Below, in pieces: positions 30,366-32,120 of a DNA stretch of 35,856 bases. Where the stretch lies: contig JASUSP010000018.1 in the NCBI GenBank assembly GCA_030446005.1, forward strand, positions 1-35,856, written 5' to 3'. This DNA comes from Tepidanaerobacteraceae bacterium. GTDB taxonomy: Bacteria; Bacillota; Thermosediminibacteria; Thermosediminibacterales; Thermosediminibacteraceae. The first letter of the stretch is position 1. The number at the start of each line of letters is the position of its first letter. Position numbers and translations under genes: made by a program. The notes under the pieces were generated by a model, which saw only the letters and a list, made by a program, of their open reading frames with translations, made no database searches and had not been told where the DNA came from.

Positions 30366-30428
30366 CTCACCTTCCGGTGGAGTGACGTCCTTCCCTCAAT
30401 AAATTGAGGGGGGGGTTATTGCCCCTCG
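30366..30428 (+). other. Cluster of GC-rich hairpins after argH
   Basis: Several overlapping stems occur in about 60 bases: CACC/GGTG (30368-30379), CCCTCAA/TTGAGGG (30393-30410), and a competing pairing of CAATAA (30397-30402) with TTATTG near 30417-30422. A GAGGGG/CCCCTC pairing is also possible. Only a short ATTTTT follows, some distance away, so this is not a textbook terminator. It may still end the argFGH transcript. No gene is seen between 30359 and 30534. Confidence 0.4.
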
Positions 30429-30497
30429 TGCTCCCCATTTTTCTAACTCAAATCTCGAACAATATAAATAAAAAGGATTTAAGGGAAAAACACAAAA

Positions 30498-30528
30498 TGA
30501 AAAGCCGGGGGTATTTGATGTCCCCGGC
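30498..30528 (-). terminator. Intrinsic terminator of the brnQ operon
   Basis: GCCGGGG (30504-30510) pairs with CCCCGGC (30522-30528) around an 11-base loop. Read on the minus strand, the stem is followed by a T-rich stretch (TTTTCATTTTGTG). It lies just after the stop codon of the small membrane-protein gene, so brnQ and that gene end here. Confidence 0.7.
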
Positions 30529-30534
30529 AGGATG

Positions 30535-30816
30535 CTACAATCCGAGCAGTGTGAGCATGAAGCCCAGCACTATGAAAAATGCGATGGTGACCGTCAGGAA
30601 GACGTCGTATTTTCTTTTTAATAAAGCCGTAATTCCACAGTATAAAATTATAGACAGCATAATGGAAAAAATCACATAAATTGCTTTCAGCCCGAAAGTT
30701 TCAGTGAGCAAGGCGTGAATTTTTTTCAGTACGATGAACTTGGGCTCGATGTTTACTTCTATGAATTCTATTATCCTGTCGTTGATTTGGTGGTTCACGG
30801 GCAAAATCAACATCAT
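30535..30816 (-). CDS. Small membrane protein of unknown function, coupled to brnQ
   Basis: I do not recognise this 93-residue protein. The first 42 residues are mixed and amphipathic. Two hydrophobic segments follow, about 43-66 and 72-93, separated by the basic turn KRKYD. This predicts a two-pass membrane protein with almost no C-terminal tail. It starts with ATGATG, and the first ATG overlaps the brnQ stop (ATGA), so it is translationally coupled to brnQ and ends at an intrinsic terminator. A partner or accessory of the transporter is possible, but only context supports that. Confidence 0.75.
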   Translation of the reverse strand: MMLILPVNHQINDRIIEFIEVNIEPKFIVLKKIHALLTETFGLKAIYVIFSIMLSIILYCGITALLKRKYDVFLTVTIAFFIVLGFMLTLLGL

Positions 30817-32120
30817 TTTAAACCGTTTTCTTTTTCCAATTTTTTATTGAAAGCCGAATGGATCATGCCCAGCATGATTCCAAACATCGCCATATAAACC
30901 CAGGCGAAACCTTCCTTCACAAAGGGAAGATAATAGAAAGCTTCGTATACTTTATTGAGGTTTAACCCCGCGGCCGACAAACCGTCGACGATGCTTATAA
31001 GCAGCGTGAAAATGGCGGCGTATGCATAGCAGCGCTCGTTTTTGATGAACGAACTGAAGGCGTTCATTAAGATTAAAACTATGACCACCGGATATACCGA
31101 TACCAGAATGGGGACCGAAAATTTAATGATTTTTTCCACTCCAAACGCACCAATTAAAGCGCTGAAGAGGGATATTATTACCACCATGGCTTTGTAGCTT
31201 ATTTTGTTTTTTGTCAAACGGCTGAAGTATTCTGCCGAAGTTGCCGTTAAACCTACCGAGGTGGTAAGACAAGCGAGGGAAACCGCAAGACCGAGGGCTA
31301 CCTTTCCGAAACTGCCGAGTTCCTTTTCCACTATGGAAATTAATAATGCCGTTTTGCCGATTTCTCCGTCAAAGAGGGTCGAGGCGGTGGCCCCAAGATA
31401 CATAAGACCTCCGTATACGAAAAGCAGCCCGAGAGCGGCTATTAGTCCGGAAATAATCGTTAATTTAATCTTCTCTTTTGCTTTCTCATATACTCTTTCT
31501 TTTACCGCGTTTATTATTATCCCTGCAAAAACTATGGAAGCCAAGGCGTCCATTGTCTGGTATCCTTCGGAAAAAGACCTTCCAAAAGCATTCGATATAT
31601 TGGAAGAGGCAAAGCTGCCTACAGGGGCAATTATCCCTTTGATTATGATTACGGCCAGCATTAAAAGTAACGACGGGGTTAATATTTTACCTATGTTGTC
31701 TATTACCTTGGATCGGTTAATGGTAAAATATATATTTATTGCGAAATAAATGACCGATGCCGTCAATATGTTGAAATCCGGCATGATAGGGGCTATACCC
31801 ATTTCGTATGTGGTTGCTCCCGTTCTCGGGATTGCAAGAAGCGGACCTATGCACAAAACTATGGCGAAATAAAGTCCGCTAGCGAAAGCTTTTCCAACCT
31901 TTCCGGCGAAATTTTCAAAACTTCCTTCGTGTTGGGCCATCGTGATGATACCTAAAAGGGGTAGACCGATTCCTGTGAGCATGAAGCCCATTAGACCCAA
32001 AAACCATTTATCTCCTAGTTGAAAGCCTATGTATGGCGGGAAGATTAGGTTGCCCGCTCCGAAAAACATGGCAAAGAGGGCAAAGCCGATTACCATTACG
32101 TCGTTTATTTTTTTGTGCAT
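30813..32120 (-). CDS. brnQ: Branched-chain amino acid:cation symporter, BrnQ/LIVCS family
   Basis: The 435-residue protein is highly hydrophobic with about 12 predicted membrane segments. It has the family opening with GFALFAMFFGAGNLIFPPYIG and the segment LCIGPLLAIPRTGATTYEMG, both characteristic of BrnQ carriers that take up leucine, isoleucine and valine with sodium or protons. The ATG follows GGGAGGTATCAAACC. A small membrane protein gene overlaps its stop. The leader is short, with no room for a T-box or leucine riboswitch. Confidence 0.94.
   Translation of the reverse strand: MHKKINDVMVIGFALFAMFFGAGNLIFPPYIGFQLGDKWFLGLMGFMLTGIGLPLLGIITMAQHEGSFENFAGKVGKAFASGLYFAIVLCIGPLLAIPRTGATTYEMGIAPIMPDFNILTASVIYFAINIYFTINRSKVIDNIGKILTPSLLLMLAVIIIKGIIAPVGSFASSNISNAFGRSFSEGYQTMDALASIVFAGIIINAVKERVYEKAKEKIKLTIISGLIAALGLLFVYGGLMYLGATASTLFDGEIGKTALLISIVEKELGSFGKVALGLAVSLACLTTSVGLTATSAEYFSRLTKNKISYKAMVVIISLFSALIGAFGVEKIIKFSVPILVSVYPVVIVLILMNAFSSFIKNERCYAYAAIFTLLISIVDGLSAAGLNLNKVYEAFYYLPFVKEGFAWVYMAMFGIMLGMIHSAFNKKLEKENGLK

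Follow-up and report, generated by a model that had tools for sequence, protein, structure and literature searches.

Carriers of the BrnQ type are regarded as single proteins, and the locus described here raises the question of what a small membrane protein encoded directly behind one might do. In the window, by which we mean the whole stretch of 35,856 nucleotides that was analyzed, an open reading frame on the minus strand (30535-30816; 93 amino acids counted from its first ATG) begins within the stop codon of brnQ. A sequence-only reading had taken it for a real gene, coupled to brnQ in translation, that could encode an accessory or regulatory peptide of the carrier. If the family does have a lineage-specific small subunit, then one carrier clade could be compared with and without its partner. 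The features of the locus are as follows:

30485 to 30528, minus strand: probable intrinsic terminator after the small gene, a hairpin (30504-30528) with a U-rich tail
30535 to 30798, minus strand: small membrane protein gene in its most likely coding extent, with a GTG start at 30798 and 87 amino acids, based on homologue alignment, dN/dS, a substitution test, hydropathy and a structure model
30799 to 30816, minus strand: six extra codons of the longer open reading frame, whose ATG at 30816 overlaps the brnQ stop as ATGA; probably a non-coding re-initiation or ribosome-binding zone
30813 to 32120, minus strand: brnQ, a full-length branched-chain amino acid:cation symporter (LIVCS) of 435 amino acids, matched by PF05525 and TIGR00796
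32121 to 32272, minus strand: gap upstream of brnQ and probable promoter of the two-gene unit, with TATAAT, TGG ahead of it, and GGGAGGT before the brnQ ATG, read directly from the sequence

Homologues and selection on codons

We searched 61 genomes, the window's own (G000) and 60 relatives, and found the small gene in five, G000 included, all of one family and representing Fervidicola, Thermosediminibacter and one Thermosediminibacteraceae MAG. Carriers include Fervidicola ferrireducens Y170 (G002), Thermosediminibacter litoriperuensis DSM 16647 (G008) and the MAG (G007). Identity to the window protein is 98% in G002, 71% in G006, 66% in G008 and 66% in G007, where the homologue is cut at 58 codons by the contig end. 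The remaining matches among the 61 genomes were weak (E >= 0.0019). A profile search of 26 genomes of the class recovered the same five genomes, and one of 398 genomes of the phylum returned four family members carrying the gene and one stretch with eight stops (E 0.0014). No homologue away from brnQ, or outside the family, turned up in these three sets or in viral contigs; the scatter of homologues away from transporters that the sequence-only reading had named as evidence against itself was thus not seen. Several of the weak matches (E 0.002-0.8) lie in long frames or contain stops, and some fall in open frames of about 100-160 amino acids, for example in G011, G012, G024, G047, G053 and G055, none of which has a brnQ match at 1e-20. 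Taken as a group, these matches were treated as chance.

By NG86, the small gene has a dN/dS of 0.12-0.17 across seven divergent pairs, while two further pairs, both with the 58-codon G007 sequence, gave no usable dS. This bears out the codon-level selection that had been proposed as a check; the values for brnQ between different genomes are 0.05-0.17. YN00 gave higher values for the small gene, 0.23-0.39 in 7 pairs. Its amino acids change about twice as fast as those of BrnQ (dN 0.161 versus 0.085, window versus G006). When substitutions were placed at random, 9 of 10 pairs had amino-acid changes as few as those observed in only 0 or 1 of 2000 placements; the tenth pair, window and G002 (189 of 2000 as low), is too similar to tell. 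Collectively, these comparisons show that purifying selection acts on the codons of the small gene. The four homologues, a dN/dS far below 1 and the shortage of amino-acid changes relative to random placement together mark the region 30535-30816 as a real gene, as had been claimed, and as one that is under selection and has no name. That it is a chance frame and no gene we consider next to impossible: the protein is known to none of the libraries and the opposite strand also carries a 91-codon open reading frame (30404-30679), but the four homologues, the dN/dS of 0.12-0.17 and the substitution simulations reject chance, and the frame has stayed open where, in simulations of nine divergent pairs, 1212-1754 of 2000 runs acquired a stop. 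That plus-strand frame, which overlaps the small gene, is itself taken as chance, the corresponding frame in L003 having a stop inside the overlap and that in L004 being broken just upstream.

The probable two-gene unit and its neighborhood

The carrier gene scores 417.6 bits against PF05525 (cut-off 22.3) and 374.4 against TIGR00796 (cut-off 243.4), spanning profile positions 3-427 of 429 and 1-403 of 405, respectively. At the far end of the unit, the proposed intrinsic terminator held up in part. The G+C-rich hairpin and its U-rich tail are present, but its folding energy (-15.1 kcal/mol, z -1.85, 9 of 200 shuffles equal) is on its own only mildly unusual. A simple terminator scan with a loop limit of 8 did not list the hairpin, whose loop is 11. 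The corresponding hairpin is stronger in G002 (-19.2) and similar in G008; G006 has no convincing one, and the G007 contig ends before the site.

The claim that translation starts inside the brnQ stop, at the ATGA, was not supported by comparison with the homologues. Past the preceding in-frame stop, the earliest start codon available to G006 and G007 corresponds to GTG 30798, residue 7 of the window frame, and the six-codon leader is not coding in either. G008, like the window, has an earlier in-frame ATG, and its leader (MRFVLH) differs from that of the window (MMLILP) in 5 of 6 residues. Because the aligned start is the only one possible in G006 and G007, we take GTG 30798 as the probable start; the ATGA overlap exists in the DNA but is probably unused. 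This GTG sits 14 nt after the brnQ stop, and across the homologues the aligned start lies 14-20 nt from it. In G006, G007 and G008, AAGGT or GAGGT precedes the aligned start by 11-12 nt, a rather wide spacing for a ribosome-binding site; the window reads GATGT in that place. Weak start signals and close spacing would fit re-initiation after brnQ, and from the spacing we infer that the small gene is translationally coupled to brnQ.

In describing the neighborhood, we use the names argH, greA, CDF-like, cobT-like and IS30-like as readings of translated open reading frames. The order in the window and G002 is argH (convergent), small gene, brnQ, CDF-like gene, greA. As the sequence-only reading would have it, homologues lie beside brnQ: the small gene is directly 3' of it in all five genomes that carry it. 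The gene on its far side varies, being argH in G000 and G002, a cobT-like frame in G006 and other frames in G008; the G007 contig ends inside the small gene. Since greA and the CDF-like gene are also near brnQ in most carrier genomes, part of the linkage between brnQ and the small gene is ordinary synteny.

Nine genomes represent the family. Both brnQ and the small gene occur in five of them and neither occurs in three (G003, G004 and G005); the ninth, G001, has a brnQ that extends past its contig end. In G003 and G004, which belong to the window's own genus, the small gene, brnQ and the CDF-like gene are all without a match and argH is directly beside greA (L078:1877-4014 and L079:1801-3930, respectively); of the missing block, only greA-adjacent sequence is recognizable in the gap. 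All that these genomes show for the small gene is a stretch broken by two stops in G003 (E 0.04) and one broken by a stop in G004 (E 0.013). G005 likewise has no match to any of the three genes. In G001 (81% complete), brnQ is next to greA, with no CDF match, and the small gene cannot be judged because the contig ends after 224 codons of brnQ. The BrnQ of G001, from the same genus as the window (L082:2540-3214), is 74% identical to the window's over 224 residues, below the 83-85% of G006 and G007 from other genera, and may be a transfer or an older paralogue.

Two carriers depart from the simple arrangement. G006 has tandem brnQ copies (L024:5188-8282; dS 0.13, dN/dS 0.284 between copy 1 and copy 2), and the first copy is followed by a small-gene-like start that meets a stop after eight codons, and then by a hairpin. 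This truncated start suggests that the pair was probably duplicated together; one small gene may now serve two carriers, or the partner may be dispensable. In G008, brnQ is split over two contigs (L025:5009-6265 and L081:2033-2759), both ending in IS30-like transposase sequence, and the small gene is intact although brnQ is interrupted by the IS30-like element.

To place the pair in a wider context, we surveyed brnQ genes outside the family, found at E 1e-45 or better in the 398 phylum genomes plus three of the same order. Of 73 such 3' ends (70 from the phylum set, 3 from the order), two had under 300 nt downstream and were dropped, leaving 71. We recorded frames of 40-150 amino acids, complete within the fragment, with a hydrophobic segment that start between -40 and +60 nt of the brnQ stop. 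None of the 71 has a frame of 75-150 amino acids with two hydrophobic segments near the stop. Six have a shorter or one-segment hydrophobic frame, which we take as chance level; two of these have two segments (54 and 60 amino acids), and L096 is a 78-residue one-segment frame. The nearest BrnQ outside the family (G017, same order, 53% identity) has no comparable frame after it. BrnQ outside the family thus does without a small partner, which points to an addition particular to this lineage, as opposed to a general subunit that had escaped notice; the partner appears, from gene content, to be a family-level innovation.

Protein anatomy and proposed role

The protein of 87 amino acids divides into the following segments:

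Residues 6-38: amphipathic N-terminal stretch
Residues about 39-60: first membrane segment (TM1)
Residues 61-65: KRKYD loop
Residues about 66-87: second membrane segment (TM2)

The two clear hydrophobic segments noted from the sequence are borne out by Kyte-Doolittle maxima of 2.47 and 2.59 (19-residue window), and the hydrophobic moment is 0.50-0.54 at residues 5-18 and 23-33 and lower in between. Among three divergent full-length sequences, 1 of the first five residues is invariant, as are 22 of 33 residues of the amphipathic stretch, 11 of 22 of TM1, all 5 of the loop and 17 of 22 of TM2. TM2 and the loop are thus better conserved than TM1, and more so than a bare membrane anchor should need. 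The helix IAFFIVLGFMLTLLG of the small protein is conserved. A structure model built from five sequences (mean pLDDT 69.5, pTM 0.47) has helices at 9-22, 24-41, 43-66 and 70-91 in the 93-residue numbering, with its highest confidence in the hairpin. By the positive-inside rule, the KRKYD loop would be cytoplasmic and both ends outside.

As had been said of it, the protein is recognized by no library: Pfam and NCBIfam, whose models presumably include the MetS, YhdT, DUF485 and DUF4212 families, gave 0 families each at E up to 10. Neither a profile search of PDB sequences (one match, E 2.7) nor a search of PDB folds (13 matches, lowest E 5.5) was convincing, and Rfam had no family at its gathering threshold within the window. 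Several known identities were considered. A catalogued small transporter subunit, of MetS type or other, finds no curated family match, although the gene lies beside a secondary transporter, as catalogued small subunits do, in all five genomes with it. An AzlD/BrnE small component would have four helices where this protein has two hydrophobic segments, and the neighbor here is a PF05525 protein. A split-off end of BrnQ is rejected, the best local match covering 14 residues (E 0.051, single comparison) and BrnQ itself being nearly full on its models. A phage holin or other phage protein has as its best PHROG score a weak E 0.15, and 0 of 244 candidate stretches in viral contigs were confirmed as relatives.

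What, then, might the protein do? It makes a good candidate helper or regulator of the BrnQ carrier, specific to this lineage, and we hold the chances about even that BrnQ in this family has in it an accessory or regulatory subunit, one that belongs to no catalogued family and works with BrnQ as MetS does with MetP. In such an arrangement, the two proteins would be made from one mRNA, with the small gene probably translated by re-initiation just after the brnQ stop. The helical hairpin of TM1, KRKYD and TM2, with the amphipathic N-terminal segment lying on the membrane, would then pack against BrnQ and might stabilize the carrier or tune its uptake. The reading as an accessory or regulatory subunit best accounts for a TM2 kept better than TM1 and for a gene that accompanies one carrier throughout and is missing along with it. 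We count for this reading the adjacency to brnQ in five of five genomes despite the changing far-side gene, the co-absence of both genes in G003, G004 and G005, the dN/dS range (0.12-0.17, versus 0.05-0.17 in brnQ), the contrast of TM2 and loop with TM1, the probable joint duplication in G006 and the 14-20 nt spacing. We count against it the small sample (five sequences, all of one family, including a pair with 98% identity and one truncated to 58 codons), the roughly twofold faster amino-acid change, the greA/CDF-like synteny, the first G006 brnQ copy without an intact small gene, BrnQ elsewhere without a partner, and the intact small gene beside the interrupted brnQ of G008, which would be strange in an obligate pair if the insertion did not happen recently. 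Of the original proposal of an accessory or regulatory peptide, what stands is a real and selected gene that is always next to brnQ; its confinement to one family narrows it.

The main rival, which we rate as a good deal less probable than an even chance, is that of an independent small membrane protein, acting for example in membrane stress or metal handling and perhaps with the CDF-like exporter, that shares the brnQ promoter and makes no contact with BrnQ. The CDF-like gene is upstream of brnQ in G000, G002, G006, G007 and G008, the three genomes without the pair (G003, G004 and G005) have no match to it, and the survival of the G008 small gene next to a broken brnQ suits independence too. 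But 152 nt and a terminator-like hairpin (judged by eye) part the CDF-like gene from brnQ, whereas the small gene begins no more than 20 nt from it; the tandem arrangement of G006 puts a second brnQ copy between the CDF-like gene and the small gene; and G001 has brnQ without a CDF match, though any small gene there would lie off the contig. Should it act alone, the protein would still come from a conserved gene for which Pfam and NCBIfam have no model.

Operon inertia in a family that is small and slow to rearrange, by which the linkage would reflect shared ancestry only and the protein's role would be unrelated, strikes us as improbable. The carriers are indeed all of one family, and the order greA, CDF-like gene, brnQ, small gene is common where visible, but congeners that have retained argH and greA have neither brnQ nor the small gene, an absence that is unexpected for a housekeeping gene. 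A membrane-active peptide, such as a toxin or holin-like protein, would match the short, hydrophobic, hairpin form but is very improbable given the weak PHROG scores, the lack of a relative in the viral contigs and the fixed position after brnQ.

Returning to the subunit reading, a stronger version, which we entertain only tentatively, is that this could be the first case of a LIVCS carrier with a second subunit. The protein would have been acquired a single time, in the family's ancestor, and through a conserved contact made by TM2 would alter BrnQ in its affinity, its coupling ion or its heat stability. G006, with two carriers and one partner, would form part of the natural comparison. In the open-licence literature, searched by title and abstract start, we found no paper on a small BrnQ partner.

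Comparison with known transporter systems

LIVCS carriers belong to the LeuT-fold superfamily. A study on B. anthracis places them in the MFS and describes BrnQ proteins of 433-451 residues with typically 12 helices (PMC8787487). The window's carrier is full length and typical, like an ordinary single-polypeptide BrnQ; unlike the 71 surveyed 3' ends outside the family, it has a comparable partner frame behind it.

AcrZ of E. coli is encoded away from its pump. This small membrane protein is described as binding a large transporter, AcrB, and modulating it (PMC7267776). The window protein differs from it in length and in transporter class.

The LIV-E branched-chain amino acid exporter BrnF-BrnE/AzlC-AzlD is an obligatory pair of a large membrane protein (251 residues, seven helices) and a small one (108 residues, four helices) (PMC8140960). 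The pair studied here is similar in joining large and small membrane proteins around branched-chain amino acids; unlike it, BrnF-BrnE/AzlC-AzlD is an exporter, and the window protein has no Pfam match.

The two-subunit methionine/alanine importer MetP-MetS of Corynebacterium is a member of the NSS family. MetS is its small and required subunit and has one membrane segment, whereas the window protein has two; the carrier here is LIVCS, not NSS, and the small protein has no Pfam match at E 10. Like MetP-MetS, the brnQ locus would be a gene pair that encodes an amino acid symporter together with its second subunit.
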